This document shows positions 911-25,924 of a DNA stretch of 25,924 nt, in pieces. The stretch comes from a virus, in IMG/VR virus record IMGVR_UViG_3300027917_000161, positions 1 through 25,924 of that record; one strand, 5' to 3'. Position numbers and translations under genes: made by a program. The notes beneath the pieces were generated by a model. The model had not been told where the DNA came from. It made no database searches and saw nothing but the letters and a program-made list of their open reading frames with translations. Every line of letters begins with the position of its first letter. Position 1 is the stretch's first letter.

Positions 911-939
911 TTGACTATATATGATATTAGGGGTATAAT
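911..939 (+). promoter_or_regulatory. sigma70-type promoter of the riboswitch unit
   Basis: TTGACT (911-916) and a perfect TATAAT (934-939) are separated by 17 bases. The expected start is near 946, only a couple of bases before the 5' strand of the riboswitch P1 helix at 948, so promoter and aptamer positions support each other. Host RNA polymerase could read it early in infection. Confidence 0.85.
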
Positions 940-945
940 ACTCTT

Positions 946-1038
946 GTCGTTCATCTGCTATTTGCGAATAGCAAATAGAGACGGAAGTACCGAAAGGGAA
1001 GGAACGCAAATTTACTCATTCAGTAAAGGAGCAACCTT
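946..1038 (+). ncRNA. glutamine-II-type riboswitch (Downstream-peptide motif) leader
   Basis: The leader matches my recollection of the Downstream-peptide / glutamine-II aptamer of marine Synechococcus, Prochlorococcus and their phages. CGTTC (948-952) pairs with GAACG (1002-1006). A long hairpin CTATTTGC/GCAAATAG (958-965/971-978, loop GAATA) is extended by TCT/AGA around a bulged G. The conserved CGGAAGTA (982-989) follows, then a short CC-GAAA-GG hairpin (990-997) and GGAAGGAACGC (997-1007). Downstream, TTTACT/AGTAAA (1011-1016/1022-1027) forms a 6-bp hairpin whose 3' arm runs into the Shine-Dalgarno AAGGAG (1026-1031). That suggests control of translation of the 33-aa peptide starting at 1039. 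The known class binds L-glutamine. The ligand in this copy is inferred by family. Confidence 0.85.
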
Positions 1039-1140
1039 ATGAAAATCACTTTCGTACAATACCTAAAAGAAAAGGATAAAAAGCGGAAAAAACTTCATAA
1101 CGCCGAAATTAATATGGCTAAAAAGCCACAAGTAGCGTGA
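1039..1140 (+). CDS. 33-aa basic peptide under riboswitch control
   Basis: The gene begins at ATG 1039, 7 bases after a strong AAGGAG, and ends at TGA 1138-1140. The product (MKITFVQYLKEKDKKRKK at its start) has 9 Lys, 1 Arg and only 3 acidic residues, net about +7. The first half looks like a single amphipathic or basic helix. Short peptide genes directly after this RNA motif are what gave the Downstream-peptide motif its name. In cyanobacteria, glutamine riboswitches control gifB-type glutamine-synthetase inactivating factors, which are also small basic proteins, so a role in modulating host glutamine synthetase is a reasonable hypothesis. I see no convincing sequence similarity to IF7/IF17. 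Its stop overlaps the GTG start of the next gene. Confidence 0.8.
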   Translation: MKITFVQYLKEKDKKRKKLHNAEINMAKKPQVA

Positions 1141-1295
1141 TTAGTGAAGACTATTATCATGAAGAAAATATTGATGACAGAGAACCTGCTTGTTATCTTT
1201 TAACATATAGAGGTCAAAATTATTGGCACTGTTATGGCATTCATTTAATTGAGTGGTTTGAGCAAATTTATGATAAAAACTTTGAGGGGGGTTGA
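1137..1295 (+). CDS. 52-aa acidic protein, GTG start, translationally coupled
   Basis: An open frame begins at GTG 1137, overlapping the preceding stop as GTGA, and ends at TGA 1293-1295. No ATG is available in this frame. The composition looks coding: Tyr, Trp and His rich with short hydrophobic strands (ACYLLTYRGQNYWHCYGIHL, IEWFEQIYDKNFEGG). It has about 11 acidic and 3 basic residues, net about -8, opposite to the 33-aa peptide just upstream. I do not recognise the family. The core strand-turn-strand plus helix pattern could be a small folded domain. Its last codons form the 5' arm of the intrinsic terminator, which marks the end of the transcription unit. It is probably expressed only by coupling from the riboswitch-controlled gene. 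Confidence 0.7.
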   Translation: MISEDYYHEENIDDREPACYLLTYRGQNYWHCYGIHLIEWFEQIYDKNFEGG

Positions 1296-19772: not shown

Positions 19773-22700
19773 ATGTATATTGAATTTCCATCAAACCCTA
19801 CAGTAGGTCTTACTACTTCTATTGGGGAGAAGACCTGGATTTATACTGGAAAGGGGTGGAAACTTCAATTTGTTCCAGCAACTCAAGGTACTCAAGGTAC
19901 TCAAGGTCCACTGAGTAATTTTCAGGGAACTCAAGGAAGACAGGGTTTACAGGGAATTCAAGGAAACCAAGGTCTCCAAGGAAATCAAGGTCTCCAAGGA
20001 AATCAAGGTCTCCAAGGAAATCAAGGTCTCCAAGGAAATCAAGGTGTTCAGGGCAATCAAGGTCTCCAAGGTGTTCAAGGACCTTTAAGCAATAATCAAG
20101 GTACTCAAGGTACTCAAGGTCTTCAAGGAAACCAAGGTGTTCAGGGTATCCAGGGCCCCCTAAGTAATTTTCAGGGAACTCAAGGATTACAAGGAAATCA
20201 AGGTCTTCAAGGACTTCAGGGCCTTCAAGGTCTTCAAGGAACTCAAGGTCATCAAGGTTCTCAGGGAACTCAGGGAACACAAGGTACTCAAGGAACTCAA
20301 GGAAATCAAGGTCTTCAGGGAAATCAAAGTTCTCAGGGAACACAAGGTACTCAAGGAACTCAAGGTCTTCAAGGCACTCAAGGCACTCAAGGTTCCCAAG
20401 GTTCTCAAGGTTCTCAAGGACTTCAAGGCACTCAAGGTTTACAAGGTACTCAAGGTACTCAAGGCACTCAAGGTTTACAAGGCACTCAAGGTACTCAAGG
20501 CACTCAAGGCACTCAAGGTACTCAAGGCACTCAAGGTTTACAAGGTACTCAAGGTACTCAAGGTACTCAAGGTTTACAAGGTACTCAAGGTTTACAAGGT
20601 ACTCAAGGTTTACAAGGTTTACAAGGAATTCAAGGTTTACAAGGTACTCAGGGTTTACAAGGTACTCAAGGTTTACAGGGTTCACAAGGAACTCAAGGTT
20701 CACAAGGTACTCAAGGTTTACAAGGTTTACAAGGAACTCAGGGTCTTCAAGGTCTTCAGGGTCTTCAGGGACTTCAAGGATCTGCTAATTTTGGATTTCT
20801 CATAGAAGAAGATAATGAAAATGAAATAAGATATATTGGTTTTGTTACAGATACAGTTGGTACAGCTTCAACACTATATGTAAATTCCTCCGAGGAAAAT
20901 GCTTTTGTATTCAACCCAAATCTTGGTAATGTTGGAATTGGGACAACAAATCCAACAGAAAAATTACAAGTATCTGGAAATGTTGAAGTTTCTAATAATG
21001 TATCAGCATTAGCATATTTTGGCGATGGTGTCAATTTAACTGGAATTGTTACTCAAATTGTTCCAAGTATTGGAATTAATATTCAGGAAACTGAAGTTCC
21101 TGGGAAAGGTGTTGTAACAATTGATGCATACAAACCAGTTGGAAAAACGATATATGTATCCCAAACTGGAGATGATAATAATACTGGATTTACTGAAAAC
21201 TATCCCAAGAGGACTATAAAAGGTGCTGCTTCAGTAGCAGTATTTGGGGATACAATTAAAGTATTTCCGGGTGTTTATGTTGAAGATAATCCAATTATTT
21301 TAAAGAGAACAGTTTCTGTTGAAGGAACAGAACTTCGTAACTGCGTTGTTACACCTGGGAATGTCAATCAAGATATTTTCTATGTAAATAACGGATGCCA
21401 TATTACTGATATGAGTTTTATTGGACCTGATATGACAGATGGTGCGGCAGTAGTTGCTCTACAACCACTACTGGGTGTAAATGTGGACAGATATTTTGAT
21501 GCTGCTAGAATGATTCGTTATAATTTAGAGTACATTGCACAAGAGTCTGTTGGATTTTTAACAAGTGGTTATAGTGGATTTGCTGGAGGGCATAGGTATC
21601 AAGACGCTGGAAACTTATTAGAATTAAATGCTGACTTTATTGCTGCCGAAACAGTTGGTTATTTGACTAGTACTGATTATAAGAATCCACCATTTCAAAT
21701 TGTTGACTCTTTAGGAAATCTTACTGAACCATCAAATTGCACTGATGATATCAAAGATATAGTGTTACAATGGGCAAATGACTTAAAAGCAAATAGTAAT
21801 AAAAAGTCTATTGGTGCAGGTCTTTCTTATTATGATGATGGTGGTTCATTGCTACACATTGTAGGAAATGATCCGAATACATATAGCGTTCGACAAGCAA
21901 CAGTTGATGCTATTGAATATGCTGTTGGAATTGCAACATTTATTGTTGATAATATTGATTACGAAAATCAACCAGGAATAACTACATATACAAATTTGTC
22001 CCAAAACTTTAGTTATTCGCCAATTTTGGTTGGTGGAGGTTGTACTGATGTTAGGAATGATTTGGTGAATCTTTCTGGAATTGTAACTTCAATTATTGGT
22101 ATAGGTACTGAAGAGGCACCAGAAACTATATTTGGCGTTAGATTGGAAAGTGAAAAGTGTGCAAAAGATGTAAAAGATATTTGGAAGTCAATTATATATG
22201 ATTTAACACGAGGAGGAAATTCAAAATCAATCAGAGCAGGAAAATTCTATTACGACGATGATTTTGTATTGAATCCAGAAATTCTTAAGAACCCTCAAGA
22301 AGTTGAACAAACAATTGCAACCCTTGACTATTCATTTAACATTGTAAGGTCTGTAGTGAATAATGTAAGTTGGGGAAGTTGGCCAGTTGGATTTGGAGTA
22401 AATCCACTTAATGTTACTAATGCAACTTATGATAATGTAACAGGATTAACTACAATAACTGTAAATGCGAATCATAATTTGCAGGTTGAGAGTGTCGTTA
22501 AGATAGAAGGATTGGAATTCTCTTGTCCCGATAGTCCGCCAAATCTAATCTACCCAACTGGAAGTCTTGGATATATCTTTGAGGTGCATAAATTAATTGA
22601 TAATGATACATTTGAAGTAATTGTTGGACAATCAACTCTTCCACATACATATGTTTCTGGTGGAACTGTTCAGCAATATAAAAACTTCTATAATAAATTC

Positions 22701-24563
22701 ACCCAATTAAAGGACCTTTCAATTCAGATTGACCCAGATACTGGATTTAATAATGGAATTAATGGATGCGTAAATGTTGTTTCTGCATTGCGAAGTGCTG
22801 TTGGTGTTGTAACAACAGTAATTGGTCTTGGAGCAACATCAGGAATTACTACAACATATCCCGGAAATAATGGATATGGATTTACCTCTACTGTTGCTAT
22901 AAGTACTGCAACATATGACCATATAAATGGAACTGCCACAATAACTGTGCCAGGATTATCAACAAAAGTTGGTGATTTAATTGAGATGTATGATTTAGTA
23001 TTTGAATGTAGTTCTGGATTAACAACTTCAACTCAAAAATTCCCATCAGGAACCTATGGATATGAATTTTATATTACAAAAGTAGTAGATAACAATACTT
23101 TCCAAGTTAATGTTGGAACTTCAACTCTTCCACATACATACGTTTCTGGTGGATTTATTATTGATCGTTCTATTGGAATTACATCGGCACTGTACGATAA
23201 TATTTCTGGAATAGCTACAATCGGAGCACCTGGAGCATATCTAAAAGTTGGTGATTTTGTTGGTCTTAGAGATATGGAATTCTCTTGCCCAGATAGTCCA
23301 CCAAATTTAATTTATCCATCAGGAAATAATGGTTATATATTTAAAGTTGAAAGTGTTGTTTCTTTAGGAAATACATTCACAGTTAATGTTGGAACTTCAA
23401 CTATCCCACATACTTATGTTTCGGGTGGACTTGTAATACCACCATACTCAAAAGGAGTTGGTCCAATTACTCAAGGTCCATATGTTAGAAACTGTACTAA
23501 TTTTATTCCAAAGAGTATTGGAATGAAAGTTGATGGATTTGATGCTGAACCAGGAGACCAAGATGATATTGGTGTGACTGGAACGATGAGTGTTGACTCA
23601 TACACTCAATACAATCAGGGTGGTATTGGAGTATCAATTACCAATGGTGCATATTCTCAGTTAGTGTCTATCTTCACTATTTGTGACGACATTGCAATTT
23701 ACACTGCTTCTGGTGGACAGTGTGACTTAACAAACTCCAACTCATCTTTTGGAAATTATGGTTTATGGTCAGATGGTGTTGGTGACCAAACAACTGGTTC
23801 AATTTACCACTATACTGGAAAGGTAGTTCAAGATGCTGAGTTAGAGCAAGATACTGTTGTAATAGGTGGAATTGGAACCTATAGACCTTATGATGGGCAG
23901 GCACTATTTTTTGATAAACTTTATTATTTTGTTGATGGTATTAAAATTACAAATAGTGGAGGAGGATATACAGTTCCCCCAGTTGTTACTTTTAGTTTCC
24001 CAGAGGGTCAAAATGGAATTCGTGCAGAGGGTAGTGCAAACATTGATTCATTTGGAAGAGTTACATCTATTGATGTAATTAGTAGCGGTACGCAATATCT
24101 AAACCCACCCACAGTTACTATTAGTGGTAATGGCACTGGAGCGACAGCGGAACCAATTATGTATCCAATTTATTACTCTATTCAATCTGCAACTTTACCT
24201 GAACAGGGTGTATCAACTGTAGTTCTCCTATCCAATCTAAATAATAATGTTAGTGCTGGAACAACAGTTTACTTTACTAGAGTAAGTCTACAAATTACAT
24301 CTTCCCATTCATTTGAGTGGGTCGGTTCTGGGGTAAATATTAATAATGCAAAACCTGCTTTAGGTGGTGTCGTAATTCAAGAGAATGAAGTAGTTAAAAC
24401 TAATGGTGGAATTATTGTATATACAAGTACTGATCAGGGTGGAAATTTCAAAATTGGAGATGATGTAACAATTAATCAGGTGACTGGAACAATTACTGGT
24501 AGAGCATTTAGTCAAAGTCTGTTAAATACAGTAACACCACTTATTATTGCTTTAGGTAAGTAA
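19773..24563 (+). CDS. long virion fibre with Gly-X-Gln collagen-like shaft
   Basis: A 1596-aa protein. Residues 1-35 (MYIEFPSNPTVGLTTSIGEKTWIYTGKGWK) form an N-terminal anchor. Residues 37-336 are about 100 Gly-X-Gln triplets. Next is NVGIGTTNPTEKLQVSGNV, a common fibre strand motif. A probable right-handed beta-helix follows (about 455-560, GKTIYVSQTGDDNNTG, GDTIKVFPGVYVED). Two similar helical modules come after (SNCTDDIKDIVLQWANDLK... and KCAKDVKDIWKSIIYDLT...). Then there are three tandem modules of about 85 aa ending in PHTYVSGG (about 883-966, 1044-1130, 1137-1222). The C-terminal part has GGGYTVPPVVTF/GRVTSIDVISSG repeats and a small end domain. A host-contact tail fibre or other long appendage is likely. 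The receptor cannot be inferred. Confidence 0.85.
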   Translation: MYIEFPSNPTVGLTTSIGEKTWIYTGKGWKLQFVPATQGTQGTQGPLSNFQGTQGRQGLQGIQGNQGLQGNQGLQGNQGLQGNQGLQGNQGVQGNQGLQGVQGPLSNNQGTQGTQGLQGNQGVQGIQGPLSNFQGTQGLQGNQGLQGLQGLQGLQGTQGHQGSQGTQGTQGTQGTQGNQGLQGNQSSQGTQGTQGTQGLQGTQGTQGSQGSQGSQGLQGTQGLQGTQGTQGTQGLQGTQGTQGTQGTQGTQGTQGLQGTQGTQGTQGLQGTQGLQGTQGLQGLQGIQGLQGTQGLQGTQGLQGSQGTQGSQGTQGLQGLQGTQGLQGLQGLQGLQGSANFGFLIEEDNENEIRYIGFVTDTVGTASTLYVNSSEENAFVFNPNLGNVGIGTTNPTEKLQVSGNVEVSNNVSALAYFGDGVNLTGIVTQIVPSIGINIQETEVPGKGVVTIDAYKPVGKTIYVSQTGDDNNTGFTENYPKRTIKGAASVAVFGDTIKVFPGVYVEDNPIILKRTVSVEGTELRNCVVTPGNVNQDIFYVNNGCHITDMSFIGPDMTDGAAVVALQPLLGVNVDRYFDAARMIRYNLEYIAQESVGFLTSGYSGFAGGHRYQDAGNLLELNADFIAAETVGYLTSTDYKNPPFQIVDSLGNLTEPSNCTDDIKDIVLQWANDLKANSNKKSIGAGLSYYDDGGSLLHIVGNDPNTYSVRQATVDAIEYAVGIATFIVDNIDYENQPGITTYTNLSQNFSYSPILVGGGCTDVRNDLVNLSGIVTSIIGIGTEEAPETIFGVRLESEKCAKDVKDIWKSIIYDLTRGGNSKSIRAGKFYYDDDFVLNPEILKNPQEVEQTIATLDYSFNIVRSVVNNVSWGSWPVGFGVNPLNVTNATYDNVTGLTTITVNANHNLQVESVVKIEGLEFSCPDSPPNLIYPTGSLGYIFEVHKLIDNDTFEVIVGQSTLPHTYVSGGTVQQYKNFYNKFTQLKDLSIQIDPDTGFNNGINGCVNVVSALRSAVGVVTTVIGLGATSGITTTYPGNNGYGFTSTVAISTATYDHINGTATITVPGLSTKVGDLIEMYDLVFECSSGLTTSTQKFPSGTYGYEFYITKVVDNNTFQVNVGTSTLPHTYVSGGFIIDRSIGITSALYDNISGIATIGAPGAYLKVGDFVGLRDMEFSCPDSPPNLIYPSGNNGYIFKVESVVSLGNTFTVNVGTSTIPHTYVSGGLVIPPYSKGVGPITQGPYVRNCTNFIPKSIGMKVDGFDAEPGDQDDIGVTGTMSVDSYTQYNQGGIGVSITNGAYSQLVSIFTICDDIAIYTASGGQCDLTNSNSSFGNYGLWSDGVGDQTTGSIYHYTGKVVQDAELEQDTVVIGGIGTYRPYDGQALFFDKLYYFVDGIKITNSGGGYTVPPVVTFSFPEGQNGIRAEGSANIDSFGRVTSIDVISSGTQYLNPPTVTISGNGTGATAEPIMYPIYYSIQSATLPEQGVSTVVLLSNLNNNVSAGTTVYFTRVSLQITSSHSFEWVGSGVNINNAKPALGGVVIQENEVVKTNGGIIVYTSTDQGGNFKIGDDVTINQVTGTITGRAFSQSLLNTVTPLIIALGK
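19881..20780 (+). repeat. 9-bp Gly-X-Gln codon repeat array in the fibre
   Basis: About 100 copies of a GGN-NNN-CAR unit, mainly GGTACTCAA, GGAACTCAA, GGTCTTCAA and GGAAATCAA. X is mostly Thr, Leu or Asn, with rarer Val, Ile, Ser, His and Arg. Four consecutive 18-base units (19962-20033) are nearly identical. Three GPLSN(F/N)Q interruptions occur (19905, 20079, 20154), and one Gly-to-Ser break (QSSQ near 20326). Confidence 0.95.
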
Positions 24564-24922: not shown

Positions 24923-25924
24923 ATGGCAAAGTACAATTCCGGTAGAGTAAAAAGATTTGATCAGTTAGGAATTACATCGGATAGATATGAATTTCTTGGT
25001 TTGGAGCAGGCTGAACCAGATCTTGGCGACCCTTTAGTTGGTGTATCTTCCATTGGTACAAATCCATTCCCTCCAGGACAAACAGTTCCAGTCAATCACT
25101 ATGTTCTTATTGCGGCAGAAGGATATACTGGGGAGAGATTCTGGGTTCCATCTACTGATGTATATGCACAGGGTATTCAAGGTACTCAAGGTCTTCAAGG
25201 AACTCAAGGTACTCAAGGTACTCAGGGAAATCAAGGAACTCAAGGTGTTCAAGGACTCCAAGGAAATCAAGGACTTCAAGGTAATCAAGGTACTCAGGGA
25301 ACTCAAGGAACTCAAGGAACTCAAGGTTTACAAGGAAATCAGGGTAACCAAGGCAATCAAGGTACTCAAGGACTTCAGGGTCTTCAAGGAAATCAAGGAA
25401 ATCAAGGTGTTCAAGGACTCCAAGGCACTCAAGGTACTCAAGGAACCCAAGGACTACAAGGAAATCAAGGACTACAAGGAAATCAAGGACTCCAAGGACT
25501 ACAAGGAAATCAAGGACTACAAGGAAATCAAGGAACTCAAGGAACCCAAGGTCTTCAGGGTAACCAAGGACTCCAAGGTTTACAAGGAAACCAAGGACTC
25601 CAAGGAAATCAGGGTGTTCAAGGTCCATTAAGTAATTTTCAAGGCACTCAAGGAACTCAAGGAAATCAAGGACTCCAAGGAAACCAAGGAACTCAAGGTA
25701 CTCAAGGTACTCAAGGTACACAGGGATCTGGATTTCAAGGCACTCAAGGAACCCAAGGTCTTCAGGGTAATCAAGGTACTCAAGGCCTTCAAGGAAATCA
25801 AGGAAATCAAGGAACACAAGGTCTTCAAGGAAATCAAGGAAATCAGGGAACTCAAGGTACTCAAGGAACTCAAGGAACTCAAGGCCTTCAAGGAACCCAA
25901 GGTACTCAAGGAAACCAAGGAACT
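24923..25924 (+). CDS. second Gly-X-Gln collagen-like structural protein (partial)
   Basis: The frame opens at ATG 24923 and stays open to the last base, at least 334 codons. The N-terminal 82 residues are a unique anchor domain (MAKYNSGRVKRFDQLGITSD, then PFPPGQTVPVNHYVLIAAEG and TGERFWVPSTDVYAQ). It is unlike the anchor of the first fibre. From residue 84 on the protein is Gly-X-Gln triplets with X mainly Thr, Leu and Asn. Breaks are GPLSNFQ (25622-25642), shared with the other fibre, and a GSGFQ element near 25724. The C-terminal domain lies beyond the window. The other frames in this region are also open for long stretches, but those are by-products of the 9-base repeat. Confidence 0.85.
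   Translation, partial: MAKYNSGRVKRFDQLGITSDRYEFLGLEQAEPDLGDPLVGVSSIGTNPFPPGQTVPVNHYVLIAAEGYTGERFWVPSTDVYAQGIQGTQGLQGTQGTQGTQGNQGTQGVQGLQGNQGLQGNQGTQGTQGTQGTQGLQGNQGNQGNQGTQGLQGLQGNQGNQGVQGLQGTQGTQGTQGLQGNQGLQGNQGLQGLQGNQGLQGNQGTQGTQGLQGNQGLQGLQGNQGLQGNQGVQGPLSNFQGTQGTQGNQGLQGNQGTQGTQGTQGTQGSGFQGTQGTQGLQGNQGTQGLQGNQGNQGTQGLQGNQGNQGTQGTQGTQGTQGLQGTQGTQGNQGT
25172..25924 (+). repeat. second 9-bp Gly-X-Gln codon repeat array (continues past the window)
   Basis: About 83 triplets of the same GGN-NNN-CAR kind as the array at 19881-20780, with GGAAATCAA, GGACTACAA and GGTACTCAA common. It is still running at the window end. The similarity of both arrays at DNA level would allow recombination between the two genes. 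Confidence 0.93.

Follow-up and report, generated by a model that had tools for sequence, protein, structure and literature searches.

Two small overlapping frames of a T4-like cyanophage-type virus, ORF1 and ORF2, are, on comparison with their relatives, real and conserved genes that are inherited together, and the theme conserved in the pair is, as far as the sequences tell, a basic helix combined with a YRG hairpin and not an opposition of charge. They lie behind a glutamine riboswitch aptamer in a 25.9-kb virus record (hereafter the window), the gene content of which is of the T4-like cyanophage type. In the best reading, the pair corresponds on the phage side to IF17 and to the small DUF4278 proteins that riboswitches control in the host. 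We propose, with a confidence that falls a little short of even, that the locus is a glutamine-switched mini-operon of T4-like cyanophages, the helix and YRG proteins of which would, at high glutamine, act jointly on a protein of host nitrogen assimilation. The features of the locus are collected in Table 1.

Table 1 Features of the riboswitch locus, in window coordinates
Feature	Position	Strand	Basis
Promoter of the sigma-70 type (TTGACT-17-TATAAT) directly before the aptamer	911..939	+	Consensus scan, 11/12 matches; predicted
Glutamine-I riboswitch aptamer (glnA RNA)	946..1010	+	RF01739, 42.4 bits; P3 pair changes in relatives
Probable expression platform, with a hairpin (TTTACT/AGTAAA) followed by the Shine-Dalgarno AAGGAG	1011..1038	+	Sequence and conservation; switching inferred
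ORF1, basic helical protein of 33 aa (net +7), corresponding to the N-terminal helix of phrog_545 as a separate protein	1039..1140	+	
ORF2, 52-aa YRG-hairpin protein, GTG start, net -8, coupled to the ORF1 stop	1137..1295	+	
Intrinsic terminator; 5' arm formed by the last ORF2 codons, stop codon in the loop	1284..1312	+	
Promoter of the next gene, TTGACT-17-TATGAT, -35 box inside the terminator loop	1292..1320	+	

Both frames were found where a preliminary description of this DNA had placed them, with an ATG start for ORF1 and a GTGA shared by the two genes at 1137-1140, and the charges of +7 and -8 that it gave proved correct when counted as K/R minus D/E. It had also set the pair between a riboswitch and a terminator. 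The aptamer does lie upstream, but the terminator does not simply follow ORF2: the 5' arm of the terminator-like hairpin at 1284-1304, behind which a T-run tail is present, consists of the ORF2 codons GAG GGG GGT TGA. The end of ORF2, the terminator and the next promoter (-35 box TTGAC) are thus superimposed within 1284-1320, and the same arrangement was seen at this place in L012-L035. In relatives such as S-RIM32 and S-SRM01, the equivalent site has speD and/or other small genes on one side and thymidylate synthase on the other. Elsewhere in the window, two large ORFs (19773-24563 and 24923-25924) contain long GTQG/GLQG collagen-like repeats and likely encode tail-fibre-type proteins.

The evidence that both frames are genes comes from their substitution patterns, which the preliminary description had proposed to compare across cyanophages. 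An intact ORF1, always of exactly 33 codons, is present in 24 loci representing 15 distinct DNA versions; among these versions, the differences at codon positions 1, 2 and 3 amount to 531, 367 and 1224 (sums over pairs of related sequences, so that the counts are not independent) and pN is 0.117 compared to a pS of 0.579. For the ORF2 core in the close group, pN and pS are 0.130 and 0.692. Both frames are therefore conserved with pN well under pS and, judged from these substitutions, purifying selection acts on both. Using tblastn, ORF2 relatives were found in 37 phage records; in viral contigs, 138 places were confirmed, of which 80 were kept. Across 34 ORF2 proteins, H8, R15, P17, C19, Y20, L22, Y24-R25-G26, Y29, W30, C32, Y33, L37 and F41 are invariant and H36 is nearly so. 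Most of the phage records carry no annotation at the place of ORF2, which belongs to no PHROG. The gene was missed because of its GTG and overlapping start, in keeping with the earlier remark that the GTG start makes it easy to miss; the statement that neither protein is recognised likewise holds for the window ORF1 and ORF2 in Pfam, PHROGs and NCBIfam. A scan of 84,980 genomes, limited to short patterns, gave no confirmed host-encoded relative of ORF2. No description of the two genes was found in the literature searched, and their novelty is meant within the searchable literature.

The match to RF01739 at 946-1010 scores 42.4 bits, above the gathering score of 35 for this family, and the P3 pairs CC/GG become GG/CC in relatives. 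The sequence suggests that this aptamer binds glutamine and switches expression. Its core occurs without exception in the 54 distinct ORF2 loci for which at least 420 nt of upstream DNA were available, a set on which the counts of helix and YRG genes given below are also based. The ribosome site of ORF1, AAGGAG at 1026-1031, can pair with CCTT at 1035-1038 in a region that is conserved in relatives; such a maskable site fits translational control, with the switching itself presumed from the sequence. Where another ORF precedes ORF2, its start codon shares 1 or 4 nt with the stop codon of that ORF in 51 of 54 distinct loci, and a Shine-Dalgarno is absent from 52 of the 53 tightly coupled starts. 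Because of this overlap without a Shine-Dalgarno, ORF2 is most likely translated by termination-reinitiation, that is by coupling. The same two observations would suit an ORF1 that is mainly a leader, passing riboswitch control on to ORF2 by coupling while its own product matters little. This we consider very improbable: the length of ORF1 is fixed, its pN is far below its pS, and helix homologues do not always adjoin ORF2.

The relatives of ORF1 and ORF2 share a gene neighbourhood. Usually the riboswitch is followed by genes for a YRG protein (phrog_5049), an ORF1-type helix, sometimes a hydrophobic peptide, and then ORF2; a basic helix of the ORF1 type is encoded in 50 of the 54 distinct loci and a two-YRG protein in 42, and ORF1 comes first in the window's lineage because the YRG gene is missing there. 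The hydrophobic peptide of 20-30 aa (e.g. MIAAIAGASTAFIYLIYIEVLLLNR), which overlaps the ORF2 start downstream of the helix gene in L041, L042, L060, L073, L083 and others, probably spans the membrane. Profile-profile tests connected ORF1 with a family of 32-aa proteins (MKKLNVLQLIK..) and with the first 26 residues of phrog_545, and in both cases none of 200 column shuffles reached the score; on these profiles, ORF1 is homologous to the phrog_545 N-terminal helix. The latter family, found in 375 phage records, consists of this helix fused to a YRG/DUF4278-like half, the helix being separate in other phages, and its C-terminal half is related to phrog_5049 and, under the cut-off, to DUF4278. 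The YRG motif of ORF2 matches the C-terminal half of phrog_545 as well as phrog_5049 at a score reached by 0 of 60 shuffles, over 8-11 residues only. The window ORF2 gave no match to the DUF4278 model (PF14105), which 6 of 34 ORF2 relatives match weakly (best E 0.0078) without reaching the curated cut-off. A structure model of ORF2 (mean pLDDT 73.5, pTM 0.43) shows a beta hairpin that turns at the RG, together with a helix at the C-terminus. A structure search with it returned only two high-probability matches, namely a relative from S-RSM4 and an unnamed viral protein of 52% identity, and no solved structure; a sequence search of the PDB was empty as well.

The proteins of phrog_545, 54-55 aa long and found in cyanomyoviruses, are among the closest comparisons to the window pair: their N-terminal helix is homologous to ORF1, they have the YRG motif in common with ORF2, and in sampled isolates they too stand behind glutamine-type aptamers. 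They differ in being a single fused chain with two YRG motifs, and several isolates carry an ORF2 homologue behind phrog_545. In the pattern-limited scan of the 84,980 genomes, the sole match to phrog_545 was a phage-like contig in a marine MAG. The fusion of helix and YRG parts in phrog_545 supports a joint action of ORF1 and ORF2. Alternatively, the two genes could share regulation only and form no complex, ORF1 having one role and the ORF2/YRG proteins another, such as attachment to a metal, to nucleic acid or to an enzyme of the host. The upstream neighbour of ORF2 indeed varies (helix, phrog_545 or hydrophobic peptide), and the invariant H8, C19 and C32 together with the nearly invariant H36 are possible metal ligands; with a helix gene in 50 of the 54 loci and the helix-YRG fusion in phrog_545, however, we regard independent roles as rather unlikely.

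The preliminary description had drawn attention to the strongly opposite charge of the pair and had suggested that the two proteins could bind each other. While ORF1 is always clearly basic among relatives, the net charge of ORF2 over 60 distinct proteins ranges from -8 to +2 with a median of -2, and -7 or -8 occurs only in the closest relatives of the window. This range rules out opposite charge as a defining property of the pair; it is peculiar to the window's lineage. Binding between the two proteins finds indirect support in phrog_545, where an ORF1-like helix and a YRG half are fused, whereas an electrostatic basis for it is unsupported, because the acidity of ORF2 is not conserved and some relatives have a third, hydrophobic peptide between the genes. 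The loss of acidity also weighs against a toxin-antitoxin pair of basic toxin and acidic antitoxin, which small overlapping genes of opposite charge, as present in the window's lineage, could bring to mind. PADLOC gave no match to a known family of toxin-antitoxin or defence systems, Pfam and NCBIfam gave none of relevance, and metabolite control in apparently lytic phages follows no addiction logic; we consider such a pair extremely improbable.

A second suggestion had been that ORF1 acts like a glutamine synthetase inactivating factor with ORF2 as an acidic modulator, a role in which ORF1 would dock by its basic residues. Like IF17, ORF1 is small, basic and under glutamine control, and a short stretch of it, QYLKEK, resembles QFIKNR of IF7. 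Neither ORF1 nor ORF2, however, matched the IF7A model NF052599, which found no match in the ten genomes or records searched either. When the ORF1-family profile was compared to a sequence which we take to be that of IF7, an identity supported by its match of 123.6 bits to NF052599 as a positive control, the score was reached by 4 of 60 shuffles and hence lies within shuffle range. The negative HMM and profile tests speak against ORF1 as an IF7 homologue. With these results, and with an ORF2 acidity that is not conserved, ORF1 acting alone as an inactivating factor appears quite unlikely, and the suggestion found no support.

Two host systems resemble the phage locus. In Synechocystis, a glutamine-I riboswitch controls IF17 (gifB), the N-terminal part of which is DUF4278, and in marine picocyanobacteria glutamine-II riboswitches precede small DUF4278 proteins, for which a role as inhibitors of glutamine synthetase has been considered (PMC6316151). 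In both cases the host riboswitches are ON switches (PMC6316151; PMC6698751). With IF17 the phage unit shares the aptamer class and the presence of a DUF4278-type and a basic module in one regulatory unit, but it is smaller, consists of two genes and lacks a match to the IF7 inactivating module. With the downstream-peptide (glutamine-II) loci, such as PMM1846 (PMC2864571, PMC6316151), it shares a glutamine aptamer directly before a conserved ORF of 17-100 aa, an arrangement that characterises this type and was found at the window locus with a coding ORF, as well as a YRG/DUF4278-type protein in the unit. The window differs from these loci by its phage location, its glutamine-I aptamer and the placing of helix and YRG on separate overlapping genes, and its ORF2 scores under the DUF4278 cut-off. 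Phage-borne glnA-type aptamers have likewise been described in Melnitz (PMC9004378), but there located with the tmRNA gene, and in S-CREM1 (PMC9964418), for which no description of a small-protein operon was found.

Because the layout of the phage operon matches that of the host and phrog_545 fuses its pieces, we infer a joint action on nitrogen assimilation at high glutamine. Binding of glutamine would free the ribosome site of ORF1, making the element an ON switch as in the host, and ribosomes would re-initiate at ORF2, such that high glutamine would lead to the production of both proteins. The helix and YRG modules would then work together, as the phrog_545 fusion suggests. Their partner would be a protein of host nitrogen assimilation, with glutamine synthetase or a regulator of this enzyme as the most plausible candidate, and by binding it they could keep the flow of nitrogen suited to phage production. 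The host target is the weakest step of this explanation and taken by itself doubtful; it is the context of the locus that suggests glutamine synthetase.

Whereas the leader in the window has a single aptamer, that of most relatives contains two glutamine-aptamer modules in tandem (L017, L026, most of L037-L093, L001-L009). The 52 distinct elements in the fetched loci follow the pattern CGTTCA..CG(C/G)AAGTA-J1-GGAACG-n-CGTTCA..CGCAAA-J2-(G/A)AAGGAACG, by which the canonical aptamer parts AAGTA and GAAGGAACG sit in different modules. J1 can pair with J2, by AG/CU, GG/CC or CG/CG on the outside and CG/CG, CU/AG or GG/CC on the inside; this holds for 36 of 36 positions in nine distinct combinations and was reached by 0 of 2000 shuffles, a count that overstates the case somewhat as the pairs were picked after viewing the sequences. 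The pattern appears to fit two interlocked aptamers, of which the inner one is permuted and lies within the P3 arm of the outer one. Computed energies are lower for this nested fold than for the side-by-side fold in 32 of 34 elements, neither being the computed minimum. Simple side-by-side tandem aptamers are disfavoured by these energies and by the J1/J2 covariation across modules. The CGTTC/GAACG pairs are invariant in the double elements, which may therefore also switch between both topologies.

Inside the P2 loop of the inner aptamer, 19 fetched loci (18 distinct) contain a complete ORF of 51-64 codons (L001 at 1176-1343, L002-L009, L063, L077, L091, L092, L094-L097, L099 and L100). Its start codon, a few bases past CGTTCA, falls within the P2 stem or next to it. 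Since the stop codon is placed inside the aptamer core or close to it, the encoded protein usually has ..DAND or ..DAKAD as its last residues. In the 64-aa group the nested ORFs are conserved at the amino-acid level (pN 0.195, pS 0.549). The stem that closes around the ORF varies in a compensatory way (CCCATG/CATGGG, CCTATGC/GCATAGG, TCTATG/CATAGA), and its summed length of 81, compared to a shuffle mean of 58.8, was reached by 0 of 2000 shuffles. Because of this stem, the folded aptamer should close the nested gene. It is conceivable, though we advance it with reserve, that folding of the interlocked aptamers on glutamine closes the nested gene and opens the downstream pair, one sensor thereby giving two opposite outputs. 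No description of a gene inside a riboswitch aptamer was found in the literature searched. One locus with this architecture, L091 (NHGE01000043.1), is a MAG contig assigned to 'Euryarchaeota archaeon TMED129'; it carries a cyanophage-type double aptamer, the nested ORF and phrog_545, and is probably a misbinned phage contig.

Together these observations give a functional entry point to gene families that many cyanophages carry, mostly without annotation. An interlocking of aptamers around a nested gene would, if true, be an unusual way to build a riboswitch. Marine picocyanobacteria may or may not regulate their glutamine synthetase through small proteins (PMC6316151), and the phage proteins could be used to probe this. 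More broadly, the locus suggests that phages may read the glutamine level of their host and answer it with their own version of the small nitrogen-control proteins of the host.
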